In this document: positions 15,568 to 47,651 of the stretch, in pieces
Layout of the letters: each line of letters opens with the position of its first letter
How positions within the stretch are numbered: the first letter of the stretch is position 1
NCBI GenBank assembly: GCA_950295325.1
Contig: OX485807.1
Coordinates: 36,982,440 to 37,046,439 of the forward strand
DNA length: 64,000 nt
Direction of reading: 5' to 3'
DNA from: Polytrichum commune
Lineage: Eukaryota; Streptophyta; Polytrichopsida; Polytrichales; Polytrichaceae
Program-made: the position numbers and the translations under genes
The notes under the pieces: model-generated
Database searches by the model: none
Told to the model about the DNA's origin: nothing
The model's input: only the letters and a program-made list of their open reading frames with translations

Positions 15568-15910
15568 ACAATAAATAAAAACAGTAAATAAAAATAGTAA
15601 GTTAAAACAGTAAATAAAAACAGTAAATAAAAACAGTAAATAATAGACAGTAAATAATAAATAGTAGACAATAAACAATAAATAAAAGACAGTAAATAGT
15701 AGACAGTAAATAATGGACTGTAAATAGTAGACAGTAACTAATGGGCAGTAAATAATAGACAGTAAATAATGGACTGTAAATAGTAGACAGTAACTAATGG
15801 GCAGTAAATAATAGACAGTAAATAATGGACTGTAAATAGTAGACAGTAACTAATGGGCAGTAAATAATAGACAGTAAATAATAGACAGTAACTAATGGAC
15901 AGTAAATAGT
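15568..15910. repeat. Minisatellite of GACAGTAAATA units in the CACTA element
   Basis: An 11- to 12-bp motif (AGACAGTAAATA with variants) forms a higher-order unit of about 57 bp, repeated about three times nearly exactly between 15700 and 15885. Non-coding. Confidence 0.85.
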
Positions 15911-15974
15911 AGAAGTATAGAGCGAATAGAGGCCCCCATATACAAAGGCTTGAAGCATTCCTTCTATATCATAA

Positions 15975-17599: not shown

Positions 17600-17604
17600 C
17601 CTTA

Positions 17605-19212
17605 TGTGAGCCCAAAAGGGTGCCCACATTTAGTCTTAGACCCTTGAAACGTTAGTTGATGCACTTTGAAGTAGCATGTTACTTCACAAAAATATAAAAA
17701 GAGTGAAATGTTAGTCTTAGAAGTACCATGTTGTAAGAGGCTAGGATGTGAGTTGTTATTGTGTTTTTACCTTCGGAAGGATTTGAGTGAATGAGGATAG
17801 GTAAGGAGAACTTGGATTGAGTAATTAGTGAGTAGGCTAGTACAAATGGATGGAGACAACCAAAGTGACTCAAGAGGCAAGTGCATTCGAATTGGGATGA
17901 ATGGAGGATCACATGGAGCGCACAAGTGGACCACCTCATCATGGCCACTTAATGGGGAAGGCCCAAGGAAGAATGCAAGGTGGAGGATAAGCAAATTCTC
18001 AAAGCACCAATCAAATCACGAGTTAAGCATCGTGGTTTGAATTAAGTGGTGAGCGACGATTTGGGAAAGTAAGGGGAGAAAGTTATGGCGGCGGAAAGCG
18101 AAGGAGGCTAAGTTTGGATTGAAGCATCCCAAGTTTGGTAAAGTGTGGTAGGTAGAAAGCCAAGGCTAGTTAAATGTTCGAATTAGGATCCTTGTTGATC
18201 ATTTGAGGGAGGAAGGCTTAGAAGATAGGATTGGCGCCTACTAAGTAGGAGGAAATCTCAAGGGCTTATCGTGAGCCTTGAGGGTGCTCACCCCCTCAAG
18301 CTTACTATATAATCCCTCATTCTTCCCTCACTCATCATCTCTTTCCTTTGTGCTCCAAGGCACCCCACGAGTTATAAGTGTGGGTGTGGGAAGCCATATT
18401 GGAGCACATGTGTGTGCTTAGTTTTTAGTTTGAGAGCCAAAGCTTGTTAGCCTTGAAGAGGGCTTGACCTCTTGGTAGAATTAGTGTTGACGTGAAGGAT
18501 TTTAAAGTTAATTCATGATTCCAATTTGTGGTACTTAAAGTTCATGTTTTGAATACACGTGGTTGCAAGTTCCATGTTTAAGAGTTGAGCACTTGATGTT
18601 GTGATGAGTGCAAAAATATACTTGTGTGGATTAGTTAGTCTTAGTGAAGTTAGGAAATTCTCTCTCCCCCTCTCCTCTCTAGGATTTTAGGATTTTAGGA
18701 TTAGAGAAGAATTGTGTGATTAGAAAGGGGTTGTTAGTAGAATTAGGGAAATTAGGTAGGAAGATTAGTTAAGGGCTTGAATAATTAGTGAGGTAGTTGG
18801 GGATTACAACTACAAAGTTGTGGGTTCATGAAGGAGCTGGGTTTGTTTAGTTAGAAAGTAAAGAGCTGGGTTTATGAAGGACCTGGGTTTGTTTAGTTAG
18901 AAGCTAAGGAGCTGGGTTCATGAAGGAGCTGGATTTATGAAGGACCTGGGTTTGTTTAGTTAGAAGCTAAGGAGCTGGGTTCATGAAGGAGCTGGGTTTA
19001 TGAAGGAGCTGGGTTTGTTTAGTTAGAAGCTAAGAAGCTGGGTTTATGAAGGAGCTGGGTTTATGAAGGAGCTAGTTAAATCCAAGACCACTTGAAGGGT
19101 GAACCTTGCACTATGGACTCATCCAAGTCCAAATCCAATACCGCGGAGGAATGTGAGCCCAAACCCACTACTCGGACTACGGACGCTTAAGGGTGGGGGG
19201 TTTGGCCTCACA
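17605..19212 (+). repeat. LTR 1 of the Ty3/gypsy array
   Basis: 1608 bp, starting TGTGAGCCCAAAAGGGTGCC and ending GGTTTGGCCTCACA. The target duplication CCTTA lies directly to its left. A TATATAA box at 18306-18312 is a likely LTR promoter. A repeated GAGCTGGGTTTATGAAGG motif occupies about 18830-19075. It matches LTR 3 in length and nearly in sequence. Confidence 0.93.
18306..18312 (+). promoter_or_regulatory. Candidate TATA box of LTR 1
   Basis: TATATAA followed by a C/T-rich stretch (TCCCTCATTCTTCCCTCACTC), the usual look of a plant pol II start region. The same box is at 27125-27131 (LTR 2) and 36247-36253 (LTR 3). Confidence 0.5.
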
Positions 19213-19216
19213 TAAT

Positions 19217-19236
19217 TGGTGCGTCCGCCGGGAGCG
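19217..19236 (+). other. Primer-binding site of unit 1
   Basis: TGGTGCGTCCGCCGGGAG begins 4 bp after the end of LTR 1. Starting with TGG, it is complementary to a CCA-ending tRNA 3' terminus, as expected for minus-strand priming. I could not assign the tRNA with confidence. The same site is at 28339-28358. Confidence 0.7.
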
Positions 19237-20122
19237 AAGCGGAAGGTAGTTACAAGACTTGGAGGCGACTAGGATACTTGGAGGCAACTAGGAAAAATTG
19301 GAGACACAAACTTGAGAGAAGGGAAGGAGCACCCGAAACTCGGTAAGTATTCTCTCTTTGGGTTACATTTGAATTCATTGTATTTCAACTATTCTTTGGA
19401 ATGAATTGCATTGTCAATTACGCAAATTCATTTTTGAGGAAGGAGCGCGGCGAAGGTACGTCCTCAACCTTTTTGGGGATTTGCTAAGAACTTAAAAGGA
19501 ACCTATAACCGAGTAGCTCATTAAAACATTAGAGGGTAAATTCACCTTAGGACATTGAACTTTGACACTCACCTCGGGGTGAGTCTCAAAGTTTTGGGAG
19601 TTGTCATTTCATGCTCTAGATTAAATTAATATTTCTCAAAGTTTATGGTGTTGTTACATTGAGTCACGATTGAGGGGAGTGCTAACTCACAGGGGGATGC
19701 GATTGCTCAAGGTATGTTTATTTCTTCAAAGTGAACTCATTAACTAATTAAGGAATGCCTTTTGTACTCGTGATTGTTGTTATCCGTTGTAGAGGGTAAT
19801 TCCCGAATTGTGGATGGTGTGAGAAGTTGAAGGGTGAAGCCTCGACTTTTAACATAATCTACTCGGAAGGTCACCCCCTCACAATCGGTATTGTGGTGAG
19901 TGTTAATTTGCGGGAAGGTGCGGAGGTGATGCTCCGACTTAACCAAAAAATTAACATGAACATGCCTATCCCCTATTGGGATTCTTTCACCTAAGTGGGC
20001 TTGCAGGTTCTTTTCCTCACCTCCTAAAAAAAATTATAACCACACCAAGACAAGTGAAAATATTAAGAGGGGAATTGCTAGGATTATGTGTGGTCAAGTG
20101 AGGGTCGATCGATTCTTATGGA

Positions 20123-23100
20123 ATGCAAGGTAGGACTCGCTCACAAAAACCAAGTTTGATAGTAGGACTAGAGAAATCTACTCGAAAGAGGCGGTCCTCT
20201 AAAATCAGTGATAGATTAGAACAAGATAATGTTAGAATAGAGAGTTGTTTGAACGTCGAACCTAGGACTAGGTCAATTCTAGACACCTTAGAACTTGGAG
20301 CTCAACTTGAAGAGGAGATCACTCCCTCCAAATTGAGTGGTGAAACTTCTTCGGAAAATTACACACTTAGAGAAGAATTCCCGGTAGAAGTTGATAGGGG
20401 ATTGTTGAATAGTTCACCGGTCACCATGGCCGAGGAACGGGGGATGGATCCACCACCCATACCCCCAATTCCGCCCATACCTCCTATACCTCCAATAGAC
20501 CCATTGGTTAGGCCAAGAGGCCTACCAATTGTGGTTCCACAAAATTTAGCGGCGATGGATATGCCATCTCATCTCCCTAAATTTTATGGGACCAAGGATG
20601 AGGACCCCTCTCGGCACATGGAACGGTATATCGAACGGTTGGCTAGCTCCCTCATAACCGACCCGGGTTATTGGTTAGTGTGGTTTCCTACCACTCTAGA
20701 GGGGGAAGCCTATGAATGGTATCGGGATCATGCCGAGGGACATTTTAGGGGATGGGAACAATTACAAAGGGAGTTTCTTAACGAATTTAGGCCGGAAGTG
20801 GGTCAAAGTACCGCATTAAGGGCATTGTCGTCATTGAAGCAAGGAAGGGAGGAAGAAATTTCGGCTTACATTAGGAGGTTTGATTTAGTGTGCACTAGAT
20901 TCGTGGGTACCATGCTCAACGACGACACGCTAAAGCAATTTTTCATTCAAGGGTTTTTTAAGTCCGGAACTATTAGGGGTGTTCTAGAAAGGAATCCCTT
21001 GACCTTGGCGGATGCCAAGCGTGCGGCTAGAGATATTGAAAACTTGGATAAAGATCACGAAAGGCTATGGAGAAGGGAGGATGAATTGATCCCACAATTC
21101 ATCCCCATACGCCCTAGGGTGGTAGCGGTAGAACCCGCTAAGTATGAGAACCAAATTCCATATGCCATTGTGGACACCGGTCCCCGACCTTTAGCGGTTA
21201 GGGAACCGGCACCTCTTTTGGCACTACCGGGCCCTAGAACGGATCCACACTTGGAGGAGGTTGAGAGAAGACTAGGTGCTAGCCAACTAGGATTCCAAGA
21301 GGCTATGATAAAACAAATGCAAAGCCTCACGGATCAAATGTCATTAATGATCCGGAGTCAACAACCGGGGCCTCCACCCCCGGTTGAGTCGGGTAGGCAT
21401 TCTTCCGGATTATGGTGTGTCCAATGTGGCCAACCGGGCCACACGCGTCAATTTTGTAGAAGTGGACAAAACCGTGACCAAAGAGGAAACGGTAACCCAC
21501 CTCAACAAAATCAACGAGGTCAAGCGCCACCTCACTATGGAAATGGAAGCAATAGAGGACCACAACCTAGAGGGCAAGGTGGCCAAAATTTAGAGAAGAA
21601 GGAATTTCATCCCTTTTGTGGAAGGTGGCACGCTCAAGGACAATGTTGGTCCGAAGGTCAAGAGTTTAATTGTAGCAATTGTGGAGGAAGTCATCCCTCG
21701 GATACGTGTCGCCAACCGGACAAAATAATTAATGTCCCTTACCCGGTGGCTAATCCACAACAACAAGCAAGGGATAATATGCGAGGTGCTAGGCCACAAG
21801 GAGTACCGGCCAATGAACTTAGGCCACCTAACTTATACTATGACCATAGTAATGCTAGGCAAACTTTTCATCCACCGGCGGGCTTGCAAACTACAACCGG
21901 TTACATTCCAATACAAAATAGACAAGGAGTTCCACCTAATGGTAGTAACGGGAGACAAGCGCCTCCAACGGATCCGGGACCATCTAACTCCCAAGATGTT
22001 AGGTTCATGGATGGAGTGTTGGAGGCCACATGTGATGACATGCTTCCTCTCCCAACGAGAATTGGAGAGGAGCAAAGTCAATGGCCTCCTCACACCAATG
22101 CTATTACATATGAGTTAGTGAAGGGTAAGGGTGTGGTTGAAGAAGCACCTGCACTAGCGGTAACTACTAGGGCTAGGAGAGGGGATGCCCCGTTGGAGGT
22201 AGGAATAGGAGAGCAAGGAAATTACTCTTCGGATGAAGAGATTAATCTCTCCGAGTTGGATAGGGTAGCTAGAAGAGCTACTAAGGATGTGGAGAGGGAA
22301 AATATAATTTTACAAGATAGGGAGAGGACTAATGCGGTACATGACTTGGATAATAGCGATGTGGGTGAATGGGAAGGACCGGGGGTTCCCGTAGACGAAT
22401 TCGACGTAGTGGGTAATTCTAAGGTGGAAAGATCTACCGGGTACGACTTGTGGGCGGACCTTAGTACACTCAAGGCGGATATTACTTTCGGCCAACTATT
22501 GGAAATTTCACCCACGGCAAGGAAAACATTAAAGGAGGGAATGCCGGTACACAAGAGGATGAGGAAGGTGAAAGCTAAAATAGCCGCTAGGATCCAATCA
22601 CAAGGTGGAAGAGACGTGAAAGCTATAGAAATAGAAGTTGTTATAGTAGATAAGGTGGTTCCTAATGTGCTAGTCGACGGAGGGAGTAGTCTAAATATAC
22701 TACCGGAGGATACTATGAAAAAATTGGGACTTGGACTCACGGGGCCTTCACCTTTGGTCATAAATATGGCAAATCAAAGTTCGACTACGCCTTTGGGGAT
22801 GATCAAGGATTGTAGAATGACTACGGGAGGTGAGGAGTACTTGGTCACCTTCCATGTCATTAAAATGCACTCCAACAAGGACACCTTCCCCATTTTGCTA
22901 GGTAGGCCTTGGTTGCGGATGGCGAATGCTATGGTCAATTGGGGTGGACCTAAACCATCCATCACTTATGGTCCGGAGGGTAATAGGGTCATAGTGTCCA
23001 TTGGTTCATTAGAAGGATGGATGAAGAAGGAGATGTATTTGCCATTGGAGAAGGAAATTGATGACTTAAACGAGAATGAGATTGGCAAGGCATTGGTGGG

Positions 23101-26100
23101 AGTCGTCCATCCCGAAGGTCAAAGGGTTGTTATAGATTCGGGCTCGGGAAGTCTAGGTCCTAATTTTTACAATTATGGGGATAATGGGGATTATGCCCAA
23201 TGGCTAAGGGAGTACCCCGAGTCCGAGGTTGATGTAATGGTTACATTTCACCAAGTAGGCTTAGGGAGTGAATTTCCTAGTGTTAGTTTAGGAGAGGGCT
23301 CATTGTTGGAGCCATGTGAGGTGCTGACCGAGGAAGAGTGGGTTAGCGGTGGGTTAACACCTTGGGTAGATGACGTGGAAGAGGGTGAGGTTAGTTTAAT
23401 TCATGTAGATGGGACTCAAGAGGAGGATGTGATTATTGAGTCATCGAAATTGGAGGAGCCTTTACATTTCAAGACCACGTCTACGGGGATAGTTGTAGGT
23501 CAAGATGTGAAAGATTACCCCAATGTGCCTTCCGATTGGTATCGGAACAAAGAGGAACAAGCACATGTGTCGGAAGCGGATTGGCGGTACGTGGATGTGA
23601 AATTAAAGAATGGAAAAACCCGACAAATGAAGATGGGCTCCAAATTGGGGGAGAAAGAGGTTAGGGAGTATAGCAATTTGGTGGATGAGTTTAGTGATAC
23701 TTTTGCATGGTCCTACGATGAGCTTAAGGGAATTCCTAGGGAAATGGTAGAGCACCGGATTCCTTTAATTCCGGGGGCGAGGCCAATTAGACAAAAGGAG
23801 AGGAGGATGAATCCTCAATTGCAATTGTTGGTGAAAGCGGAATTGGAAAGGTTATTGAAGGCCGGGTTTATCAAGCCGGTGGAAATCACGGATTGGGTTT
23901 CTCCTATGGTCTTAGTAAAGAAAAAAAATGGGAAATTAAGGGTTTGTGTCGACTATAGGAAATTGAATTCGTGCACACAAAAGGATCACTTCCCCTTACC
24001 TTTTATCACCTTGTTGCTTGAGGAGGTTGGAGGTCATTCGCGATATACCTTTATGGATGGGTATGCGGGTTATAATCAAATTTCCATAGCCCTCCAAGAT
24101 ATCCATAAAACGGCTTTTACTACACCTTGGGGTACTTTTGTGTGGGTAGTGATGCCATTTGGGTTATGTAATGCCCCGGCTACTTTCCAACGATTAGTAA
24201 TGTATATCTTCACCGACTTGTTGTTCAAATCCATGACCGTCTTTGTGGACGATTTTAGCACACAAAGTAATGTGGATGATCACCTACATTGTGTTAGGGA
24301 GGCATTGGTTAGGTGTAGGAAGATGAGGTTAGCATTGAACCCGGATAAGACATTTTTGGGAGTGAATAAGGGAGTGTTGTTGGGTTATGTTGTTAGTGAG
24401 AAAGGTAGAGAACCCGATCCGGATAAGATTACGGCCATAAGCGACTTGGCAACTCCAACCAATTCCAAGGGGATCTCTAAGTTGTTAGGACATGTGGGAT
24501 GGTACCGGGAACTTATTCCTAATTTTTCAAAGATAGCGGTGCCCATTACCCATTTGCTCAAAAAGGATGTCAAATTCGAGTGGACGGATGCTTGTCAAAA
24601 AGCCTTTGAGGAATTGCGGGATAGGTTGAGCACCTATCCGGTGTTGATACCACCCAATTGGGGTAAACCTTTTCACGTCTATTGTGATGCTAGTAATGTG
24701 GCAATAGGGAGTGCGCTTTGTCAAGCAACGGGAGAAAAAAAGAAGGATCAACCTATAGCTTATGCGAGTAAGCAATTGACCCCCGCCGAAAGAAACTACT
24801 CTACAACGGAGAGGGAGTGCCTAGCCATGGTGTTTTCCGTTAAAAAGTTTAGGCATTACCTCATGTGCAACCCGGTTGTATTTTTTGTTGACCACATGGC
24901 TATCAAGTATCTAATTAACAAGGCGGAGTTAAGTGGTAGGTTAGCTAGGTGGGTTTTGTTATTAGAAGAATTCGACTACACGGTGGAATATAAACCGGGT
25001 CGTATGCATTTACAAGCGGACCACTTGTCTAGGTTGTCGGAGGAGATAGGAAAAAATCCGGTAAATGATATGTTAGTAGATGATAGCCTCTTTGTGGTCA
25101 CTTCTACACCGGCGTGGTATGCGGGCATAGTGGAATTTCTAACAACCCACAAGTTGCCCAAAGAGTGGACAAAAGAAGAGAGAAGGAAGGTGAGGGTAAA
25201 TAGTAGGCAATTTGTTGTAGTGGGCCATAGGTTGTTTAGAAGGGGGTCCGATGGTATTTTATGACGATGCGTGTCAAAAACGGAGGTTGAAGCGATTTTA
25301 ATCGCTTGCCACGATAGCGCTTGCGGCGGTCACTTCTCGGGTCAACTCACCGGGCAAAAAATACTTAGAGCGGGCTACTTTTGGCCTACACTATTTAAGG
25401 ACGCCCATGACTATGTAAGGAAATGCGACGCTTGCCAACGGTATGCCCGAGACGACCTTAGAATGGAGATGCCTTTACATGTATCATTACCCTTAATTCC
25501 TTTCGAAAAATGGGGCATCGACTATGTGGGTGAGGTCCATCCCCAATCTTCAAAAGGAATGAAATATATTGTGGTGGCAACCGAGTACCTCACCAAGTGG
25601 GCGGAAGCCAAAGCGGTGAAGACCGACACGGCGGAACACGCGGCAACATTTATGTACGAAAACATAATTTCGCGGTTCGGGGTGCCGAAGATCCTAGTAA
25701 GCGATAGGGGTACTCACTTTTTGAATGACTTGATTCGAGAGATGACAGAGAAATTTAAAATTGATCACCGGAAGACTACTCCCTACCACCCACAAACCAA
25801 TGGACAAACGGAAAGGGTTAACGGAATTTTGGTGAGTATACTACGCAAGACGGTTATAGACTCGAAGCGGGATTGGGATACGAAACTAACGGCGGCACTT
25901 TGGGCATACCGTACAACCTATAAGGTAACTACGCGTGCTACACCATTTTCCTTAGTCTATGGTCTTGAAGCGACACTACCAATCGAATATGAAGTCGAGT
26001 CACTTAGGGTGGCCGTGAGTACGAGACTTACCGAAAGTCAATCCTTACGAAATCGACTAACCGATTTGGAAGCACTTGACGAAGGGAGGAGAATGGCGGC

Positions 26101-26362
26101 TCAACATATTGAGGCAATCCAAAGAAGGAGAAAGATTACTTTCGACAAACGACATAAGAGAAGGGCCCTAACACCGGGAATGATGGTCATGATTCAAGAC
26201 GCACGAAAGCTTGAATTTCCGGCGAAATTCAATGCGGTATGGTTAGGACCTTACCTTGTCTATGAGGTCTTTCCTAATAATTCAATTCAATTGGAAACGT
26301 TGAATGGTGAGCTCTTTCCTACCCGTACATCGGGAAGTAGATGTAAGGAGTACCGAGCTTGA
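20123..26362 (+). pseudogene. gag-pol: gag-pol of unit 1 (broken)
   Basis: Same gag-pol as in unit 2: gag domain, two CCHC-type knuckles, aspartic protease, reverse transcriptase, RNase H and integrase. It appears nearly identical to unit 2 over the full length but is broken about once. It is a recent fossil rather than an ancient one. See the unit 2 entry for the domain order. Confidence 0.9.
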
Positions 26363-26423
26363 CTAGGCAACTTACCCTCGGAGCAAGAGATGTTTGGATT
26401 CATCCCCCGATGGTCGCCAATTA

Positions 26424-28334
26424 TGTGAGCCCAAAAGGGTGCCCACATTTAGTCTTAGACCCTTGAAACGTTAGTTGATGCACTTTGAAGTAGCATGTTA
26501 CTTCACAAAAATATAAAAAGAGTGAAATGTTAGTCTTAGAAGTACCATGTTGTAAGAGGCTAGGATGTGAGTTGTTATTGTGTTTTTACCTTCGGAAGGA
26601 TTTGAGTGAATGAGGATAGGTAAGGAGAACTTGGATTGAGTAATTAGTGAGTAGGCTAGTACAAATGGATGGAGACAACCAAAGTGACTCAAGAGGCAAG
26701 TGCATTCGAATTGGGATGAATGGAGGATCACATGGAGCGCACAAGTGGACCACCTCATCATGGCCACTTAATGGGGAAGGCCCAAGGAAGAATGCAAGGT
26801 GGAGGATAAGCAAATTCTCAAAGCACCAATCAAATCACGAGTTAAGCATCGTGGTTTGAATTAAGTGGTGAGCGACGATTTGGGAAAGTAAGGGGAGAAA
26901 GTTATGGCGGCGGAAAGCGAAGGAGGCTAAGTTTGGGTTGAAGCATCCCAAGTTTGGTAAAGTGTGGTAGGTAGAAAGCCAAGGCTAGTTAAATGTTCGA
27001 ATTAGGATCCTTGTTGATCATTTGAGGGAGGAAGGCTTAGAAGATAGGATTGGCGCCTACTAAGTAGGAGGAAATCTCAAGGGCTTATCGTGAGCCTTGA
27101 GGGTGCTCACCCCCTCAAGCTTACTATATAATCCCTCATTCTTCCCTCACTCATCCTCTCTTTCCTTTGTGCTCCAAGGCACCCCACGAGTTATAAGTGT
27201 GGGTGTGGGAAGCCATATTGGAGCACATGTGTGTGCTTAGTTTTTAGTTTGAGAGCCAAGGCTTGTTAGCCTTGAAGAGGGCTTGACCTCTTGGTAGAAT
27301 TAGTGTTGACGTGAAGGATTTTAAAGTTAATTCATGATTCCAATTTGTGGTACTTAAAGTTCATGTTTTGAATACACGTGGTTGCAAGTTCCATGTTTAA
27401 GAGTTGAGCACTTGATGTTGTGATGAGTGCAAAAATATACTTGTGTGAATTAGTTAGTCTTAGTGAAGTTAGGAAATTCTCTCTCTCCCTCTCTTCTCTA
27501 GGAAGTTGAGCTCTTAGAGCTCGGGAAAAAATGTGGAATTAGGTAGGGGACTTAGTGGGATTAGTGGAATTAGGTAGGTGAATTAGGGGGAGGCCTTGGA
27601 GAAGCTCTCTTTTGTTCATTTTCTGGTTTTTGTGGTTGAGGGTGGAGAAACTTAGTTAGAAGTAGCCGCAGCTAAGGAGCTGGGTTTATGAAGGAGCTGG
27701 GTTTATTTAATTAGAAGTAAGGAGCTGGGTTTATTTAGTTAGAAGTAAGGAGCTGGGTTTGTTTAGTTAGAAAGTAAAGAGCTGGGTTTATGAAGGACCT
27801 GGGTTTGTTTAGTTAGAAGCTAAGGAGCTGGGTTCATGAAGGAGCTGGGTTTATGAAGGAGCTGGGTTTGTTTAGTTAGAAGCTAAGAAGCTGGGTTTAT
27901 GAAGGAGCTGGGTTTATGAAGGAGCTAGGTTTATGTAATTAGAAAGTAAAGAGATGGGTTCATGAAGGAGCTTAGTAGATAGCCTACCTAATTAGCTCAT
28001 AGACAAGTAGTTAGTTACATTATGCTAGTTAGTGTTATGTGTGGCTTTCACAAGTAAATGTATTTGAGATTGACTATAGAGAATAGTATTTTTTTTTAAC
28101 ACTTGCATCCTCTCTTTAAAAATAAACCACGTGCACAACTTAATGGAGAATGTGGAGCACTCTCGCGATGGCAAGACAAAGGAAGCAAAGACCAAAGTTA
28201 AATCCAAGACCACTTGAAGGGTGAACCTTGTACTATGGACTCATCCAAGTCCAAATCCAATACCGCGGAGGAATGTGAGCCCAAACCCACTACTCGGACT
28301 ACGGACGCTTAAGGGTGGGGGGTTTGGCCTCACA
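26424..28334 (+). repeat. LTR 2 (shared middle LTR)
   Basis: 1911 bp, same termini and U3 as the outer LTRs but about 300 bp longer, the difference lying in the repeat-rich downstream part. It serves as 3' LTR of unit 1 and 5' LTR of unit 2. A part of its extra sequence near 28080-28200 resembles 42725-42840 in the solo LTR, so it looks like a family variant rather than random sequence. Confidence 0.92.
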
Positions 28335-28338
28335 TAAT

Positions 28339-28358
28339 TGGTGCGTCCGCCGGGAGCG
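28339..28358 (+). other. Primer-binding site of unit 2
   Basis: Identical to the site at 19217-19236, 4 bp after the end of LTR 2. Confidence 0.7.
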
Positions 28359-29244
28359 AAGCGGAAGGTAGTTACAAGACTTGGAGGCGACTAGGATACT
28401 TGGAGGCAACTAGGAAAAATTGGAGACACAAACTTGAGAGAAGGGAAGGAGCACCCGAAACTCGGTAAGTATTCTCTCTTTGGGTTACATTTGAATTCAT
28501 TGTATTTCAACTATTCTTTGGAATGAATTGCATTGTCAATTACGCAAATTCATTTTTGAGGAAGGAGCGCGGCGAAGGTACGTCCTCAACCTTTTTGGGG
28601 ATTTGCTAAGAACTTAAAAGGAACCTATAACCGAGTAGCTCATTAAAACATTAGAGGGTAAATTCACCTTAGGACATTGAACTTTGACACTCACCTCGGG
28701 GTGAGTCTCAAAGTTTTGGGAGTTGTCATTTCATGCTCTAGATTAAATTAATATTTCTCAAAGTTTATGGTGTTGTTACATTGAGTCACGATTGAGGGGA
28801 GTGCTAACTCACAGGGGGATGCGATTGCTCAAGGTATGTTTATTTCTTCAAAGTGAACTCATTAACTAATTAAGGAATGCCTTTTGTACTCGTGATTGTT
28901 GTTATCCGTTGTAGAGGGTAATTCCCGAATTGTGGATGGTGTGAGAAGTTGAAGGGTGAAGCCTCGACTTTTAACATAATCTACTCGGAAGGTCACCCCC
29001 TCACAATCGGTATTGTGGTGAGTGTTAATTTGCGGGAAGGTGCGGAGGTGATGCTCCGACTTAACCAAAAAATTAACATGAACATGCCTATCCCCTATTG
29101 GGATTCTTTCACCTAAGTGGGCTTGCAGGTTCTTTTCCTCACCTCCTAAAAAAAATTATAACCACACCAAGACAAGTGAAAATATTAAGAGGGGAATTGC
29201 TAGGATTATGTGTGGTCAAGTGAGGGTCGATCGATTCTTATGGA

Positions 29245-32200
29245 ATGCAAGGTAGGACTCGCTCACAAAAACCAAGTTTGATAGTAGGACTAGAGAAATC
29301 TACTCGAAAGAGGCGGTCCTCTAAAATCAGTGATAGATTAGAACAAGATAATGTTAGAATAGAGAGTTGTTTGAACGTCGAACCTAGGACTAGGTCAATT
29401 CTAGACACCTTAGAACTTGGAGCTCAACTTGAAGAGGAGATCACTCCCTCCAAATTGAGTGGTGAAACTTCTTCGGAAAATTACACACTTAGAGAAGAAT
29501 TCCCGGTAGAAGTTGATAGGGGATTGTTGAATAGTTCACCGGTCACCATGGCCGAGGAACGGGGGATGGATCCACCACCCATACCCCCAATTCCGCCCAT
29601 ACCTCCTATACCTCCAATAGACCCATTGGTTAGGCCAAGAGGCCTACCAATTGTGGTTCCACAAAATTTAGCGGCGATGGATATGCCATCTCATCTCCCT
29701 AAATTTTATGGGACCAAGGATGAGGACCCCTCTCGGCACATGGAACGGTATATCGAACGGTTGGCTAGCTCCCTCATAACCGACCCGGGTTATTGGTTAG
29801 TGTGGTTTCCTACCACTCTAGAGGGGGAAGCCTATGAATGGTATCGGGATCATGCCGAGGGACATTTTAGGGGATGGGAACAATTACAAAGGGAGTTTCT
29901 TAACGAATTTAGGCCGGAAGTGGGTCAAAGTACCGCATTAAGGGCATTGTCGTCATTGAAGCAAGGAAGGGAGGAAGAAATTTCGGCTTACATTAGGAGG
30001 TTTGATTTAGTGTGCACTAGATTCGTGGGTACCATGCTCAACGACGACACGCTAAAGCAATTTTTCATTCAAGGGTTTTTTAAGTCCGGAACTATTAGGG
30101 GTGTTCTAGAAAGGAATCCCTTGACCTTGGCGGATGCCAAGCGTGCGGCTAGAGATATTGAAAACTTGGATAAAGATCACGAAAGGCTATGGAGAAGGGA
30201 GGATGAATTGATCCCACAATTCATCCCCATACGCCCTAGGGTGGTAGCGGTAGAACCCGCTAAGTATGAGAACCAAATTCCATATGCCATTGTGGACACC
30301 GGTCCCCGACCTTTAGCGGTTAGGGAACCGGCACCTCTTTTGGCACTACCGGGCCCTAGAACGGATCCACACTTGGAGGAGGTTGAGAGAAGACTAGGTG
30401 CTAGCCAACTAGGATTCCAAGAGGCTATGATAAAACAAATGCAAAGCCTCACGGATCAAATGTCATTAATGATCCGGAGTCAACAACCGGGGCCTCCACC
30501 CCCGGTTGAGTCGGGTAGGCATTCTTCCGGATTATGGTGTGTCCAATGTGGCCAACCGGGCCACACGCGTCAATTTTGTAGAAGTGGACAAAACCGTGAC
30601 CAAAGAGGAAACGGTAACCCACCTCAACAAAATCAACGAGGTCAAGCGCCACCTCACTATGGAAATGGAAGCAATAGAGGACCACAACCTAGAGGGCAAG
30701 GTGGCCAAAATTTAGAGAAGAAGGAATTTCATCCCTTTTGTGGAAGGTGGCACGCTCAAGGACAATGTTGGTCCGAAGGTCAAGAGTTTAATTGTAGCAA
30801 TTGTGGAGGAAGTCATCCCTCGGATACGTGTCGCCAACCGGACAAAATAATTAATGTCCCTTACCCGGTGGCTAATCCACAACAACAAGCAAGGGATAAT
30901 ATGCGAGGTGCTAGGCCACAAGGAGTACCGGCCAATGAACTTAGGCCACCTAACTTATACTATGACCATAGTAATGCTAGGCAAACTTTTCATCCACCGG
31001 CGGGCTTGCAAACTACAACCGGTTACATTCCAATACAAAATAGACAAGGAGTTCCACCTAATGGTAGTAACGGGAGACAAGCGCCTCCAACGGATCCGGG
31101 ACCATCTAACTCCCAAGATGTTAGGTTCATGGATGGAGTGTTGGAGGCCACATGTGATGACATGCTTCCTCTCCCAACGAGAATTGGAGAGGAGCAAAGT
31201 CAATGGCCTCCTCACACCAATGCTATTACATATGAGTTAGTGAAGGGTAAGGGTGTGGTTGAAGAAGCACCTGCACTAGCGGTAACTACTAGGGCTAGGA
31301 GAGGGGATGCCCCGTTGGAGGTAGGAATAGGAGAGCAAGGAAATTACTCTTCGGATGAAGAGATTAATCTCTCCGAGTTGGATAGGGTAGCTAGAAGAGC
31401 TACTAAGGATGTGGAGAGGGAAAATATAATTTTACAAGATAGGGAGAGGACTAATGCGGTACATGACTTGGATAATAGCGATGTGGGTGAATGGGAAGGA
31501 CCGGGGGTTCCCGTAGACGAATTCGACGTAGTGGGTAATTCTAAGGTGGAAAGATCTACCGGGTACGACTTGTGGGCGGACCTTAGTACACTCAAGGCGG
31601 ATATTACTTTCGGCCAACTATTGGAAATTTCACCCACGGCAAGGAAAACATTAAAGGAGGGAATGCCGGTACACAAGAGGATGAGGAAGGTGAAAGCTAA
31701 AATAGCCGCTAGGATCCAATCACAAGGTGGAAGAGACGTGAAAGCTATAGAAATAGAAGTTGTTATAGTAGATAAGGTGGTTCCTAATGTGCTAGTCGAC
31801 GGAGGGAGTAGTCTAAATATACTACCGGAGGATACTATGAAAAAATTGGGACTTGGACTCACGGGGCCTTCACCTTTGGTCATAAATATGGCAAATCAAA
31901 GTTCGACTACGCCTTTGGGGATGATCAAGGATTGTAGAATGACTACGGGAGGTGAGGAGTACTTGGTCACCTTCCATGTCATTAAAATGCACTCCAACAA
32001 GGACACCTTCCCCATTTTGCTAGGTAGGCCTTGGTTGCGGATGGCGAATGCTATGGTCAATTGGGGTGGACCTAAACCATCCATCACTTATGGTCCGGAG
32101 GGTAATAGGGTCATAGTGTCCATTGGTTCATTAGAAGGATGGATGAAGAAGGAGATGTATTTGCCATTGGAGAAGGAAATTGATGACTTAAACGAGAATG

Positions 32201-35200
32201 AGATTGGCAAGGCATTGGTGGGAGTCGTCCATCCCGAAGGTCAAAGGGTTGTTATAGATTCGGGCTCGGGAAGTCTAGGTCCTAATTTTTACAATTATGG
32301 GGATAATGGGGATTATGCCCAATGGCTAAGGGAGTACCCCGAGTCCGAGGTTGATGTAATGGTTACATTTCACCAAGTAGGCTTAGGGAGTGAATTTCCT
32401 AGTGTTAGTTTAGGAGAGGGCTCATTGTTGGAGCCATGTGAGGTGCTGACCGAGGAAGAGTGGGTTAGCGGTGGGTTAACACCTTGGGTAGATGACGTGG
32501 AAGAGGGTGAGGTTAGTTTAATTCATGTAGATGGGACTCAAGAGGAGGATGTGATTATTGAGTCATCGAAATTGGAGGAGCCTTTACATTTCAAGACCAC
32601 GTCTACGGGGATAGTTGTAGGTCAAGATGTGAAAGATTACCCCAATGTGCCTTCCGATTGGTATCGGAACAAAGAGGAACAAGCACATGTGTCGGAAGCG
32701 GATTGGCGGTACGTGGATGTGAAATTAAAGAATGGAAAAACCCGACAAATGAAGATGGGCTCCAAATTGGGGGAGAAAGAGGTTAGGGAGTATAGCAATT
32801 TGGTGGATGAGTTTAGTGATACTTTTGCATGGTCCTACGATGAGCTTAAGGGAATTCCTAGGGAAATGGTAGAGCACCGGATTCCTTTAATTCCGGGGGC
32901 GAGGCCAATTAGACAAAAGGAGAGGAGGATGAATCCTCAATTGCAATTGTTGGTGAAAGCGGAATTGGAAAGGTTATTGAAGGCCGGGTTTATCAAGCCG
33001 GTGGAAATCACGGATTGGGTTTCTCCTATGGTCTTAGTAAAGAAAAAAAATGGGAAATTAAGGGTTTGTGTCGACTATAGGAAATTGAATTCGTGCACAC
33101 AAAAGGATCACTTCCCCTTACCTTTTATCACCTTGTTGCTTGAGGAGGTTGGAGGTCATTCGCGATATACCTTTATGGATGGGTATGCGGGTTATAATCA
33201 AATTTCCATAGCCCTCCAAGATATCCATAAAACGGCTTTTACTACACCTTGGGGTACTTTTGTGTGGGTAGTGATGCCATTTGGGTTATGTAATGCCCCG
33301 GCTACTTTCCAACGATTAGTAATGTATATCTTCACCGACTTGTTGTTCAAATCCATGACCGTCTTTGTGGACGATTTTAGCACACAAAGTAATGTGGATG
33401 ATCACCTACATTGTGTTAGGGAGGCATTGGTTAGGTGTAGGAAGATGAGGTTAGCATTGAACCCGGATAAGACATTTTTGGGAGTGAATAAGGGAGTGTT
33501 GTTGGGTTATGTTGTTAGTGAGAAAGGTAGAGAACCCGATCCGGATAAGATTACGGCCATAAGCGACTTGGCAACTCCAACCAATTCCAAGGGGATCTCT
33601 AAGTTGTTAGGACATGTGGGATGGTACCGGGAACTTATTCCTAATTTTTCAAAGATAGCGGTGCCCATTACCCATTTGCTCAAAAAGGATGTCAAATTCG
33701 AGTGGACGGATGCTTGTCAAAAAGCCTTTGAGGAATTGCGGGATAGGTTGAGCACCTATCCGGTGTTGATACCACCCAATTGGGGTAAACCTTTTCACGT
33801 CTATTGTGATGCTAGTAATGTGGCAATAGGGAGTGCGCTTTGTCAAGCAACGGGAGAAAAAAAGAAGGATCAACCTATAGCTTATGCGAGTAAGCAATTG
33901 ACCCCCGCCGAAAGAAACTACTCTACAACGGAGAGGGAGTGCCTAGCCATGGTGTTTTCCGTTAAAAAGTTTAGGCATTACCTCATGTGCAACCCGGTTG
34001 TATTTTTTGTTGACCACATGGCTATCAAGTATCTAATTAACAAGGCGGAGTTAAGTGGTAGGTTAGCTAGGTGGGTTTTGTTATTAGAAGAATTCGACTA
34101 CACGGTGGAATATAAACCGGGTCGTATGCATTTACAAGCGGACCACTTGTCTAGGTTGTCGGAGGAGATAGGAAAAAATCCGGTAAATGATATGTTAGTA
34201 GATGATAGCCTCTTTGTGGTCACTTCTACACCGGCGTGGTATGCGGGCATAGTGGAATTTCTAACAACCCACAAGTTGCCCAAAGAGTGGACAAAAGAAG
34301 AGAGAAGGAAGGTGAGGGTAAATAGTAGGCAATTTGTTGTAGTGGGCCATAGGTTGTTTAGAAGGGGGTCCGATGGTATTTTACGACGATGCGTGTCAAA
34401 AACGGAGGTTGAAGCGATTTTAATCGCTTGCCACGATAGCGCTTGCGGCGGTCACTTCTCGGGTCAACTCACCGGGCAAAAAATACTTAGAGCGGGCTAC
34501 TTTTGGCCTACACTATTTAAGGACGCCCATGACTATGTAAGGAAATGCGACGCTTGCCAACGGTATGCCCGAGACGACCTTAGAATGGAGATGCCTTTAC
34601 ATGTATCATTACCCTTAATTCCTTTCGAAAAATGGGGCATCGACTATGTGGGTGAGGTCCATCCCCAATCTTCAAAAGGAATGAAATATATTGTGGTGGC
34701 AACCGAGTACCTCACCAAGTGGGCGGAAGCCAAAGCGGTGAAGACCGACACGGCGGAACACGCGGCAACATTTATGTACGAAAACATAATTTCGCGGTTC
34801 GGGGTGCCGAAGATCCTAGTAAGCGATAGGGGTACTCACTTTTTGAATGACTTGATTCGAGAGATGACAGAGAAATTTAAAATTGATCACCGGAAGACTA
34901 CTCCCTACCACCCACAAACCAATGGACAAACGGAAAGGGTTAACGGAATTTTGGTGAGTATACTACGCAAGACGGTTATAGACTCGAAGCGGGATTGGGA
35001 TACGAAACTAACGGCGGCACTTTGGGCATACCGTACAACCTATAAGGTAACTACGCGTGCTACACCATTTTCCTTAGTCTATGGTCTTGAAGCGACACTA
35101 CCAATCGAATATGAAGTCGAGTCACTTAGGGTGGCCGTGAGTACGAGACTTACCGAAAGTCAATCCTTACGAAATCGACTAACCGATTTGGAAGCACTTG

Positions 35201-35484
35201 ACGAAGGGAGGAGAATGGCGGCTCAACATATTGAGGCAATCCAAAGAAGGAGAAAGATTACTTTCGACAAACGACATAAGAGAAGGGCCCTAACACCGGG
35301 AATGATGGTCATGATTCAAGACGCACGAAAGCTTGAATTTCCGGCGAAATTCAATGCGGTATGGTTAGGACCTTACCTTGTCTATGAGGTCTTTCCTAAT
35401 AATTCAATTCAATTGGAAACGTTGAATGGTGAGCTCTTTCCTACCCGTACATCGGGAAGTAGATGTAAGGAGTACCGAGCTTGA
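29245..35484 (+). CDS. gag-pol: Ty3/gypsy Gag-Pol polyprotein, unit 2 (looks whole)
   Basis: A single 2079-residue frame encodes a fused Gag-Pol. In order: a charged N-terminus with a proline-rich IPPIPPIPPIPPIDPL stretch (~112-127); a retrotransposon gag domain (~148-310); a CCHC knuckle CVQCGQPGHTRQFC (432-445) and a second Cys/His patch (~517-529); an aspartic protease with VDGGSS (~851-856) and ILLGRPWL (~924-931); reverse transcriptase (~1230-1410) with FVDDF at 1374-1378; RNase H starting near YCDAS (1520-1524); integrase with an HHCC zinc site (H1730, H1737, C1768, C1771) and D1800, D1861, E1897 in D-D35-E spacing. No chromodomain follows. Gag and Pol share one frame with no frameshift between them. 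The start was chosen as the first Met of the frame; it lies 910 bp after LTR 2. Confidence 0.93.
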   Translation: MQGRTRSQKPSLIVGLEKSTRKRRSSKISDRLEQDNVRIESCLNVEPRTRSILDTLELGAQLEEEITPSKLSGETSSENYTLREEFPVEVDRGLLNSSPVTMAEERGMDPPPIPPIPPIPPIPPIDPLVRPRGLPIVVPQNLAAMDMPSHLPKFYGTKDEDPSRHMERYIERLASSLITDPGYWLVWFPTTLEGEAYEWYRDHAEGHFRGWEQLQREFLNEFRPEVGQSTALRALSSLKQGREEEISAYIRRFDLVCTRFVGTMLNDDTLKQFFIQGFFKSGTIRGVLERNPLTLADAKRAARDIENLDKDHERLWRREDELIPQFIPIRPRVVAVEPAKYENQIPYAIVDTGPRPLAVREPAPLLALPGPRTDPHLEEVERRLGASQLGFQEAMIKQMQSLTDQMSLMIRSQQPGPPPPVESGRHSSGLWCVQCGQPGHTRQFCRSGQNRDQRGNGNPPQQNQRGQAPPHYGNGSNRGPQPRGQGGQNLEKKEFHPFCGRWHAQGQCWSEGQEFNCSNCGGSHPSDTCRQPDKIINVPYPVANPQQQARDNMRGARPQGVPANELRPPNLYYDHSNARQTFHPPAGLQTTTGYIPIQNRQGVPPNGSNGRQAPPTDPGPSNSQDVRFMDGVLEATCDDMLPLPTRIGEEQSQWPPHTNAITYELVKGKGVVEEAPALAVTTRARRGDAPLEVGIGEQGNYSSDEEINLSELDRVARRATKDVERENIILQDRERTNAVHDLDNSDVGEWEGPGVPVDEFDVVGNSKVERSTGYDLWADLSTLKADITFGQLLEISPTARKTLKEGMPVHKRMRKVKAKIAARIQSQGGRDVKAIEIEVVIVDKVVPNVLVDGGSSLNILPEDTMKKLGLGLTGPSPLVINMANQSSTTPLGMIKDCRMTTGGEEYLVTFHVIKMHSNKDTFPILLGRPWLRMANAMVNWGGPKPSITYGPEGNRVIVSIGSLEGWMKKEMYLPLEKEIDDLNENEIGKALVGVVHPEGQRVVIDSGSGSLGPNFYNYGDNGDYAQWLREYPESEVDVMVTFHQVGLGSEFPSVSLGEGSLLEPCEVLTEEEWVSGGLTPWVDDVEEGEVSLIHVDGTQEEDVIIESSKLEEPLHFKTTSTGIVVGQDVKDYPNVPSDWYRNKEEQAHVSEADWRYVDVKLKNGKTRQMKMGSKLGEKEVREYSNLVDEFSDTFAWSYDELKGIPREMVEHRIPLIPGARPIRQKERRMNPQLQLLVKAELERLLKAGFIKPVEITDWVSPMVLVKKKNGKLRVCVDYRKLNSCTQKDHFPLPFITLLLEEVGGHSRYTFMDGYAGYNQISIALQDIHKTAFTTPWGTFVWVVMPFGLCNAPATFQRLVMYIFTDLLFKSMTVFVDDFSTQSNVDDHLHCVREALVRCRKMRLALNPDKTFLGVNKGVLLGYVVSEKGREPDPDKITAISDLATPTNSKGISKLLGHVGWYRELIPNFSKIAVPITHLLKKDVKFEWTDACQKAFEELRDRLSTYPVLIPPNWGKPFHVYCDASNVAIGSALCQATGEKKKDQPIAYASKQLTPAERNYSTTERECLAMVFSVKKFRHYLMCNPVVFFVDHMAIKYLINKAELSGRLARWVLLLEEFDYTVEYKPGRMHLQADHLSRLSEEIGKNPVNDMLVDDSLFVVTSTPAWYAGIVEFLTTHKLPKEWTKEERRKVRVNSRQFVVVGHRLFRRGSDGILRRCVSKTEVEAILIACHDSACGGHFSGQLTGQKILRAGYFWPTLFKDAHDYVRKCDACQRYARDDLRMEMPLHVSLPLIPFEKWGIDYVGEVHPQSSKGMKYIVVATEYLTKWAEAKAVKTDTAEHAATFMYENIISRFGVPKILVSDRGTHFLNDLIREMTEKFKIDHRKTTPYHPQTNGQTERVNGILVSILRKTVIDSKRDWDTKLTAALWAYRTTYKVTTRATPFSLVYGLEATLPIEYEVESLRVAVSTRLTESQSLRNRLTDLEALDEGRRMAAQHIEAIQRRRKITFDKRHKRRALTPGMMVMIQDARKLEFPAKFNAVWLGPYLVYEVFPNNSIQLETLNGELFPTRTSGSRCKEYRA

Positions 35485-35545
35485 CTAGGCAACTTACCCT
35501 CGGAGCAAGAGATGTTTGGATTCATCCCCCGATGGTCGCCAATTA

Positions 35546-37153
35546 TGTGAGCCCAAAAGGGTGCCCACATTTAGTCTTAGACCCTTGAAACGTTAGTTGA
35601 TGCACTTTGAAGTAGCATGTTACTTCACAAAAATATAAAAAGAGTGAAATGTTAGTCTTAGAAGTACCATGTTGTAAGAGGCTAGGATGTGAGTTGTTAT
35701 TGTGTTTTTACCTTCGGAAGGATTTGAGTGAATGAGGATAGGTAAGGAGAACTTGGATTGAGTAATTAGTGAGTAGGCTAGTACAAATGGATGGAGACAA
35801 CCAAAGTGACTCAAGAGGCAAGTGCATTCGAATTGGGATGAATGGAGGATCACATGGAGCGCACAAGTGGACCACCTCATCATGGCCACTTAATGGGGAA
35901 GGCCCAAGGAAGAATGCAAGGTGGAGGATAAGCAAATTCTCAAAGCACCAATCAAATCACGAGTTAAGCATCGTGGTTTGAATTAAGTGGTGAGCGACGA
36001 TTTGGGAAAGTAAGGGGAGAAAGTTATGGCGGCGGAAAGCGAAGGAGGCTAAGTTTGGGTTGAAGCATCCCAAGTTTGGTAAAGTGTGGTAGGTAGAAAG
36101 CCAAGGCTAGTTAAATGTTCGAATTAGGATCCTTGTTGATCATTTGAGGGAGGAAGGCTTAGAAGATAGGATTGGCGCCTACTAAGTAGGAGGAAATCTC
36201 AAGGGCTTATCGTGAGCCTTGAGGGTGCTCACCCCCTCAAGCTTACTATATAATCCCTCATTCTTCCCTCACTCATCCTCTCTTTCCTTTGTGCTCCAAG
36301 GCACCCCACGAGTTATAAGTGTGGGTGTGGGAAGCCATATTGGAGCACATGTGTGTGCTTAGTTTTTAGTTTGAGAGCCAAAGCTTGTTAGCCTTGAAGA
36401 GGGCTTGACCTCTTGGTAGAATTAGTGTTGACGTGAAGGATTTTAAAGTTAATTCATGATTCCAATTTGTGGTACTTAAAGTTCATGTTTTGAATACACG
36501 TGGTTGCAAGTTCCATGTTTAAGAGTTGAGCACTTGATGTTGTGATGAGTGCAAAAATATACTTGTGTGGATTAGTTAGTCTTAGTGAAGTTAGGAAATT
36601 CTCTCTCCCCCTCTCCTCTCTAGGATTTTAGGATTTTAGGATTAGAGAAGAATTGTGTGATTAGAAAGGGGTTGTTAGTAGAATTAGGGAAATTAGGTAG
36701 GAAGATTAGTTAAGGGCTTGAATAATTAGTGAGGTAGTTGGGGATTACAACTACAAAGTTGTGGGTTCATGAAGGAGCTGGGTTTGTTTAGTTAGAAAGT
36801 AAAGAGCTGGGTTTATGAAGGACCTGGGTTTGTTTAGTTAGAAGCTAAGGAGCTGGGTTCATGAAGGAGCTGGATTTATGAAGGACCTGGGTTTGTTTAG
36901 TTAGAAGCTAAGGAGCTGGGTTCATGAAGGAGCTGGGTTTATGAAGGAGCTGGGTTTGTTTAGTTAGAAGCTAAGAAGCTGGGTTTATGAAGGAGCTGGG
37001 TTTATGAAGGAGCTAGTTAAATCCAAGACCACTTGAAGGGTGAACCTTGCACTATGGACTCATCCAAGTCCAAATCCAATACCGCGGAGGAATGTGAGCC
37101 CAAACCCACTACTCGGACTACGGACGCTTAAGGGTGGGGGGTTTGGCCTCACA
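35546..37153 (+). repeat. LTR 3 of the Ty3/gypsy array
   Basis: 1608 bp, same termini, followed directly by the target duplication CCTTA (37154-37158). Its upstream part shares rare variants with LTR 2, its downstream part with LTR 1. No clear polypurine tract precedes it. Confidence 0.93.
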
Positions 37154-37158
37154 CCTTA

Positions 37159-41277: not shown

Positions 41278-43082
41278 TGTGAGCCCAAAATGGTGCCCAT
41301 ATGTGGTGATTAACTCTTCGAAACCAATTTTAGTTTGACTTTGATGAGTTATGATTATTCACAAAACATAAAAAGAGTGAAGTGTGGTGTGGATTTAACT
41401 TTAGGCATTAGGTGGTGTTGTGTGATTATTTCAAGGTTTGATTTCAATGAGAGTATGCCTTGATAATGTGAGTAGGGGGTAAGGTGAAGCAAGGTGAGCT
41501 CCGCGGGTTAAATGCCCACTTTTGGATCCACCTTGTTAGTTTAGGAAGAAGGAAGCTTGGTGGTTGGGGATTAGTCCCTACTTTGGAGGAGAAGGTTAAG
41601 GGATTGTGATTGGAGGTGCTAATCCTCTCACCCTATCCTCACCTCTCTCTCCCTCTCTCCCTCTTTGCTACTTAAGGTGTTTTTTCTCTCATTTCCCTCT
41701 CTCTCCATCAAGCGCTCTCAAGGGAGCAAGTTCTTAAGAGCTTGAGCCACGTGTGTGGGTTATTAGTTTTAGTGAAATTAATTAGTTAAGCTCTCTCTCT
41801 CATTATCTCATTATCAAAGGGGGAGAAGCTCTTAGAGCTTGAGACAAGGTGTGTGGATTAAGTAGCTATTAGAGTAGTTGTGTGTTAGATTAGTTCATTA
41901 GCGGGGTAAGTTAGTACACGTAACCAAAGGACAAGGAGAAGTAGTTAAGGTGAGGCTCGACTAGCACCTAGGGTCGGTTAGTGAATGTAGCTCATAGCTG
42001 ACTCAAGGCCGAAGCCACAGTCCATGCCAAAGCAACAGTTTCAGGCTGAAGCCAACGTTCCAGGACAAAGCAACAGTTTTAGGCCGAAGCCACAGTTCCA
42101 GGCCGAAGCCACCGTTCCAGGCCAAAGCAACAGTTTCAGGCCGAAGCCACAGCTCAAGGCCGAAGCCATAGTCCAGGCCAAAGCAACAGTTTCAGGCTGA
42201 AGCCAACGTTCCAGGACAAAGCAACAGTTTCAGGCCGAAGCCACAGTTCCAGGCCGAAGCCACAGTCCAGGCCAAAGCAACAGTTTCAGGCTGAAGCCAA
42301 CGTTCCAGGACAAAGCAACAGTTTCAGGCCGAAGCCACAGTTCCAGGCCGAAGCCACAATCAAGGCCGAAGCCACCGTTCCAGGCCAAAGCAACAGTTTC
42401 AGGCCGAAGCCATAGTCCAGGCCAAAGCAACAGTTTCAGGCCGAAGCCATAGTCCAGGCCAAAGCAACAGTTTCAGGCCAAAGCCACAGTTCCAGGCCGA
42501 AGCCACAATTTCAAGCTGCAGCCGAAGCCAACACAAGGGCCAACCGATCCGGCGGGAGTGCAAGCAATTAACAAGGCCTAGCAACTTAGTTGTTTAGCCC
42601 GAAGACTAATCTAAATCACACTAGGCTATGGTAGGTCATCCTAGATCTTGAGTAAGGGTTGGGATTTATTAGACTAGGTAGGGTTGTATGCGACTCTTTG
42701 AATGTATTAATGATGGATCATGGAGATGAGTGTTTTTAAACACTTGCAATCTCTTTGTCAAAATAAGATCACGTGTGCCACGAATGGAGAATGTGGAGGA
42801 CCTTGGCAAGGTCAATACAAGGGGAGTAAAGATCAAGGGTGCTAGGGGACTCTCTTTAAGGGCGTGCGTGGCCAAGGCCGCGGGGTGGACCCTTGAGAAA
42901 TCACATTCCACCACACGCCAAGAGACTCAAAATAATGTAACAAGTTAAGTTAAGATAAAGTGAGTACCTTGGGCATGAGAGCCACATAGCGATTCACATT
43001 ATAATGATGTTACGAAGTGAATGTGATTCTCAAAACCATCACCCGGACTAGGACGCCTAAGGGTGGTGGGTTTGGCCTCACA
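41278..43082 (+). mobile_element. Solo LTR related to the Ty3/gypsy array
   Basis: 1805 bp, with termini TGTGAGCCCAAAATGGTGCC and GGTTTGGCCTCACA like the array LTRs, and TACTT on both sides (41273-41277, 43083-43087). No internal region is present, so it is a solo LTR left by LTR-LTR recombination. It is much diverged from the array LTRs over most of its length but shares the block 42725-42840 with LTR 2 (28080-28200). It carries its own minisatellite. A related but distinct and older subfamily. Confidence 0.9.
42001..42540. repeat. GCCGAAGCCACAGT minisatellite in the solo LTR
   Basis: Units built on CAGGCCGAAGCCACAGTT and CAGGCCAAAGCAACAGTTTC alternate in a higher-order array of about 540 bp. 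Open frames on the minus strand (42230-42584) are repeat translations and not genes. Confidence 0.9.
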
Positions 43083-47006: not shown

Positions 47007-47651
47007 ATCCCCCTCCCCCAACGGGCAGTAAAGAGTGGAAGCACGGCCTGGTGACCTGGGCACAAGTCTACCTCCCTGCGTTCTGCTAACAATAGAAATT
47101 TGAGAACGATTACGTGCAAAACCGACTCGGTCATCAGTGGTCGGGGGTGCACATTCATTTCTTTAAGTTGCAGACGCGCGGTTTTCCGATGAATCCAAGG
47201 GGATCGTCAATGAGTGAAATTCCCTACCTGTTCACGACACGAGGAGTGCTGACTAGGCGACCCCGCCTCCCATCGCGTATTTATAACCTCGGCAAGACGA
47301 CGAGCATTGCAGTTGTGGATCGCACAGCTTTGGTTTACAACTCCGCCATCCGAAGCGAAGCACCGTTGTACATTTGAAGCGGAAAAGTGTTTTGGCTCTA
47401 GAGAAGGCGACAGACATTTATTGGTGACGTGTCTGGATGCTCTGGCATAGCCTGTGCAAAGTTGGAGCAGCAGAGACAACGATCGACATTAGTTAAGTTC
47501 ACATGTGATCAGGCCGAGTTGAGTCGAGGTGTTAGAGTTGAGCAAGTGGATGCATCGAGTTGTTTGATTTCGGAGCTGCTGGAGTAGTGGCAAACTCAGA
47601 GTCTGGAGGCCTTGATCTCTGATTCTGAGAAGGTGTAGATTAAGCACCGAA
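47007..47651 (+). promoter_or_regulatory. Upstream region of GLOX copy 1
   Basis: GC content rises here. A TATTTATAA element at 47277-47285 could be a TATA box, which would give a 5' leader of about 340 nt before the ATG at 47652. Open frames at 47114-47377 and 47207-47479 show no family resemblance. From 47622 on, the sequence is part of the IR2 arm; how far left the repeat goes cannot be seen because its partner leaves the window. Confidence 0.35.

Follow-up and report, generated by a model that had tools for sequence, protein, structure and literature searches.

Two retrotransposon units which share their middle LTR and stand between a single pair of target duplications (TSDs) raise the question of how the second unit came to lie beside the first. 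Such an array is present in a 64,000-nucleotide stretch of the Polytrichum commune genome, hereafter called the window (C5:36982440-37046439, i.e., contig OX485807.1 of the assembly GCA_950295325.1, which comprises 407.8 Mb in 64 contigs), where it occupies C5:37000044-37019592. The left outer, middle and right outer LTRs are referred to as L, M and R, the array's own element as A, and a related element located upstream as B. In window coordinates the array consists of the following parts:

17600 to 17604, no strand: left copy of the TSD, CCTTA, 5 bp
17605 to 19212, plus strand: left outer LTR (L), A-type, 1608 bp, with letters of its own at LTR positions 514 and 733
19213 to 26423, plus strand: internal region of unit 1, 7211 bp, gag-pol frame with a stop
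26424 to 28334, plus strand: shared middle LTR (M), 1911 bp, an A/B/A mosaic
27260 to 28231, plus strand: B-like tract in M at its minimum extent, LTR positions 837-1808
about 26644 to 28356, plus strand: B-like tract at its maximum extent, both edges falling where A and B do not differ
28335 to 35545, plus strand: internal region of unit 2, 7211 bp, with gag, protease, RT, RNase H and integrase in an open frame
35546 to 37153, plus strand: right outer LTR (R), A-type, 1608 bp
37154 to 37158, no strand: right copy of the TSD, CCTTA, 5 bp

LTRs and internal regions alternate (1608, 7211, 1911, 7211 and 1608 bp) in two head-to-tail units, an LTR stands at each end, and CCTTA is found at both outer edges and is absent from the inner junctions, which is the architecture of a tandem LTR retrotransposon with a single outer TSD pair. 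A preliminary description of this DNA had reported the three LTRs, the two 7,211-bp internal regions and the outer-only CCTTA, and all of this was borne out by the coordinates and a check of the sequence. The LTRs start with TG and end with CA and, together with the 5-bp TSD, agree with a Ty3/gypsy element. Unit 2 was compared with Pfam in four pieces, which gave Retrotrans_gag, Asp_protease_2, RVT_1/RT_RNaseH and Integrase_H2C2/rve and hence the domain order gag, protease, RT, RNase H, integrase characteristic of Ty3/gypsy. In unit 1 an in-frame stop lies between the RNase H and the integrase-core parts, the domain places being taken from unit 2. The array is confirmed as a genuine three-LTR tandem of Ty3/gypsy units in this assembly. 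The internal regions of the two units differ by one substitution in 7211 positions and the outer LTRs by two differences in 1608, and the near-identity that had been described for both is correct. What the preliminary description had missed is that M resembles neither of the outer LTRs and is 303 bp longer.

Further repeats were observed elsewhere in the window. An inverted repeat (47622-51285 and 60337-64000) has arms of 3664 nt which are 100% complementary and lie 9051 nt apart. Its second arm meets the end of the window and may continue beyond it, and a frame in the first arm matches the N-terminus of glyoxal oxidase (PF07250, E 1.4e-96). Outside the element there are also a 19/94-nt tandem repeat array (42006-42513) and a 14-nt tandem repeat array (15568-15917).

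The outer LTRs form a closely matching pair and M diverges strongly from them across M positions 837-1808; the three LTRs are not copies of one sequence. Part of this divergence falls into a short tandem repeat, which is located in the downstream half of the LTR (positions about 1217-1469, e.g., window 18821-19073) and is composed of 17-, 46- and 63-bp units, and the further differences comprise individual substitutions as well as a block lying outside the repeat. For the identification of a donor, window positions 27480-28300 served as query, and the best 40 of 1706 candidates were scored. Among these 40, the 100% block matches were M itself and two further places; the next match reached 98%, and B-like blocks at 97-98% were present elsewhere. 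The two further places are 9122 bp apart, on the same strand as the array and 108 and 117 kb upstream of it (block to block). They are the two LTRs of B, a full-length element (C5:36891374-36902406) whose end is separated from the start of the array by 97.6 kb. B possesses its own TSD (TTTGC), two identical LTRs and flanks unlike those of the array. Its TSD and its two identical LTRs mark B, the putative donor, as an independent insertion, and its internal region differs from that of unit 2 at 5 of 7211 sites. Judged from the 40 of 1706 candidates scored, which represent assembled copies, another donor elsewhere that is identical to B in the tract is unlikely.

An alignment of R with the LTR of B contains 391 differing columns. 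M agrees with R in one of these (position 220) and with B in the other 390 (837-1808), there is no alternation between A-like and B-like columns, and from position 221 up to its end M is identical to the B LTR over 1691 bp. The length of the B-like tract accordingly lies between 972 bp and about 1.7 kb. Left of it, position 220 is the sole column in which M can be recognized as A and not B. A 35-bp pattern with the letter at this position occurs at three places in the whole assembly, namely L, M and R, and a different letter stands there in 39 of the 39 readable among 40 sampled LTR regions (20 elements). Right of the tract, the internal region of unit 2 carries the letters of unit 1, not those of B, at positions 23, 63, 118, 183 and 3340. 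A 51-bp pattern from the internal start, which covers positions 23 and 63, was found at two places assembly-wide, i.e., in both units. The array's letter at position 63 is private, being absent from all 18 readable elements (20 sampled); at positions 23 and 118 the array letter is that of all 18 readable sampled elements and it is B that differs, and position 183 was unreadable in the 20-element sample.

A donor-matching tract between recipient markers is a feature expected of ectopic gene conversion, and it is present here with one marker (220) on the left side. With array letters on each side, the B-like tract is bounded by sequence of the resident element, and each of its edges falls into sequence common to A and B, as homologous recombination predicts. 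The letters at the ends of the tract are not specific for B: the letter at LTR position 837 was read in 38 of the 40 LTR regions sampled, whereas L and R carry the unusual letter, and a 37-bp pattern with the tract-end letter at 1808 occurs at 50 places in the assembly. The match to B therefore rests on the whole tract. The two differences that separate L from R are peculiar to L, as R's letter is found at both sites in all 39 readable sampled LTRs, and this suggests that the inserted element had carried identical A-type LTRs.

The family comprises about 325 pattern places, with family matches across seven large contigs. The chance that one random place falls within 117 kb of the array is about 5.8e-4, a post hoc figure. 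Of the 325 copies, 0.19 would be expected within this distance and two, B and D, are actually there, so that the region is crowded. Element D (C5:36922844-36934119, TSD CCCGC), a third family member, lies 20 kb past B. Its LTRs measure 1813 and 2252 bp and differ by two substitutions and two indels (104 and about 335 bp). D as a second case of conversion was not supported, the difference between its LTRs being a change in repeat length. A segmental duplication of the B region was rejected, as the TSD and the flanks of B differ from those of the array. An origin of B as a daughter of the array is unlikely, as B is devoid of the array-private letters and B-like blocks of 97-98% occur elsewhere.

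As letters private to the array flank the tract on either side, the most plausible view is that unit 2 was copied from unit 1 on the spot and that M received about 1.0-1.7 kb from B. We estimate a probability of roughly three in four that A was doubled in place and that M obtained its tract from B or from a copy identical to B in this part. The preliminary description had proposed that the array was formed at this site, once and recently, and the private letters support this, the one in the LTR occurring at three places and those in the internal region at two places assembly-wide. It had further named unequal LTR recombination or recombination of cDNA with a resident copy as possible routes; neither of them alone explains why the tract in M matches the linked element B. 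Plain unequal exchange between identical LTRs was rejected as the whole story, as M matches neither of the outer LTRs over positions 837-1808. The location of the donor in cis favours chromosomal DNA over cDNA and points to the former as the recombination partner.

The course of events that we prefer is as follows. A single Ty3/gypsy element A probably inserted at CCTTA, and homologous recombination between its two LTRs, located on sister chromatids or on homologues, probably doubled it at this site later on. The most economical path would be one repair event, in which a break in the right LTR gave an end that invaded an LTR of B, copied about 1-1.7 kb, released B and then annealed to the sister's left LTR rather than to its right one. 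Such a repair would yield one extra unit and would leave a patch of B at the junction LTR. The A/B/A mosaic, the private letters flanking the patch, the separate TSD of B and the near-identity of the units are directly visible in the sequence; the order of insertion and doubling and the route via the sister chromatid are inferred. The proposal that doubling and patching took place as one template-switch repair event, in which the linked relative 108 kb away was copied first, is tentative, and we rate its chances at slightly below even.

The internal regions are less divergent than the outer LTRs, which favours the view that the doubling came after the insertion. In Fisher's test, the divergence between the units against that between L and R gave p 0.088 for the internal regions alone and p 0.072 with the shared LTR parts included, values which are not significant by themselves. 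The preliminary description had left room for a formation "after, or during" one insertion; "after" agrees with the present data, and "during" has become less likely (1/7211 against 2/1608, Fisher p 0.07-0.09, and the best donor in cis). Substitution rates in plants are 1.3e-8 and 7e-9 per site and year. With these rates the insertion would date to about 48-89 thousand years and the doubling to about 5-10 thousand years ago, the intervals being wide and overlapping.

Within the joint reading of in-place doubling and a tract from B, the single template-switch event stands beside a sequence of two separate events, its main rival, which we consider unlikely while taking it seriously. Here, unequal LTR-LTR crossing-over would have produced A-int-A-int-A, and a separate ectopic conversion would later have introduced the sequence of B into M. 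Doubling with matching LTRs does occur in the family, as was evident when the LTR stretches of other arrays were compared; these arrays were met in the searches and do not constitute a census. The array at 25.94 Mb of C7 (C7:25936415-25956513, outer TSD CTTAC) has three LTRs of 1893 bp with one difference between left and middle, one between middle and right and two between left and right, and the array at 23.58 Mb of C1 (C1:23574010-23593919, outer TSD ACCTA) has three identical LTRs of 1830 bp. In a further array at C1:73.67 Mb the 5' and the middle LTR, 2209 bp each, differ at one position; its far end lies beyond the stretch examined. A foreign middle LTR was present in one of the three arrays for which all three LTRs were compared, namely the one in the window. 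As the middle LTR of the other two shows 0-1 differences from each outer LTR, doubling would ordinarily proceed without a second donor. Among 100 of the 325 pattern places (C1, C2 and part of C3), one tandem-spaced pair was recognized by eye (C1:23581638 and 23590678).

Single elements were sampled from the C1 copies, of which the first 20 in map order of 37 intended were inspected. Both LTRs were located in 16 of them and not in the other four, and 14 of the 16 had matching TSDs. Ten of these 14 TSD-bounded elements have LTRs of equal length with 0-3 substitutions, three combine a single indel of 46, 63 or 92 bp with at most one substitution, and one shows a block difference. The last one (L046/L047, C1, about 0.93 Mb) has LTRs of 1813 and 1698 bp with the block difference at positions 1407-1674, which may reflect either repeat reshuffling or conversion. 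In the two elements without a matching TSD (L052/L053 and L068/L069, C1) the LTRs are discordant, which is what recombination between separate elements would produce. A block change in an LTR together with a matching TSD is uncommon, with at most one case in 14. This one case arose without doubling and speaks for two separate events, as does the description of inter-element LTR gene conversion in plants in the accessible text of PMC7251063. Against them, two uncommon events in the same LTR and within a short time would be required, and the patch sits in the very LTR which the duplication created.

An origin by cDNA intermediates is improbable. In this case a tandem cDNA or a one-LTR circle and B-type cDNA would have recombined, either in the particle or in the nucleus, and the product would have entered the genome as a tandem insertion or by recombination with the resident element. 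Recombination of cDNA reportedly yields tandem elements in the case of yeast Ty5. Insertion as a tandem would account for the single outer TSD, and tandem retrotransposition products are discussed for plants in the part of PMC11899658 available to us. A B circle would, however, carry the letters of B at internal positions 23, 63, 118 and 183, and unit 2 equals unit 1 at all four of them. The array-private patterns were found nowhere else in the assembly, which makes the entry of a B-type circle or cDNA unlikely, and cDNA offers no reason why the best donor should lie within 117 kb in cis. The variant in which a B-type circle or cDNA entered by one internal crossover (A-int-B-int-A) is likewise unlikely, with the letters of unit 1 in unit 2 at 23, 63, 118, 183 and also 3340.

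Least credible is an assembly artefact, in which sequence of B would have been put in the wrong place, either as the second unit or as the B-like block: B is nearby, with an internal region only 5 of 7211 sites away from that of unit 2, and the array is known from one assembly, but the misplacement would need two joins that exist in neither A nor B (A-private letter to B block, and B block to unit 1 letters within about 127 bp), the same CCTTA stands at both flanks, two further arrays of like shape are present in the assembly, and for one rice tandem an error of assembly was ruled out according to the accessible part of PMC11899658.

According to the accessible part of PMC11899658, tandem LTR retrotransposons whose units share inner LTRs within a single outer TSD pair are common and polymorphic in plants. 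Like TLI1, TLI2 and the IDENTAM set described there, the array of P. commune has alternating parts, a shared inner LTR and an outer TSD pair; gypsy elements are common among these tandems and many of them are young. The LTRs of TLI1 are 85-89% identical, compared with 94% for its internal regions, as stated in the same part of this source. Unlike LTRs inside a tandem are therefore not new, and LTR identity is perhaps not a strict criterion. What distinguishes M from the tandems in the portion of PMC11899658 at hand is its tract matching an identified linked donor, with private letters on both sides, for which that portion contains no counterpart. As in inter-element LTR conversion, an LTR tract would have been replaced by the sequence of another family member; such tracts are most often 100-1000 bp long, and this conversion is rarer than conversion within elements (PMC7251063, accessible text). 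In contrast to the cases in that text, the tract of the array reaches or exceeds the usual 100-1000 bp and is located in an LTR shared by a tandem pair. The Cassandra arrays, as far as the accessible text of PMC7215508 goes, resemble the present one in their LTR-internal repeats and in a proposed origin via recombination or during reverse transcription, and differ from it in that the window's array consists of gag-pol units, two only. Within the open-licence literature, which was covered in part, no precedent was found for a tandem with a junction-LTR tract from an identified linked donor. The new detail is the donor-marked junction LTR, plant tandem LTR retrotransposons as such being already known.

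The array bears on the origin of tandem LTR retrotransposons in plants, a question stated as open in the accessible part of PMC11899658, where complex insertion and illegitimate recombination are left undecided. Inter-element tracts and a length-variable repeat in the LTR can upset LTR-based dating. If the single event is true, the patched junction LTR would be a fossil of tandem formation, and the junction LTRs of such arrays could be screened for this mark throughout the genome. A comparison of junction with outer LTRs across all tandem arrays is suggested as a test.
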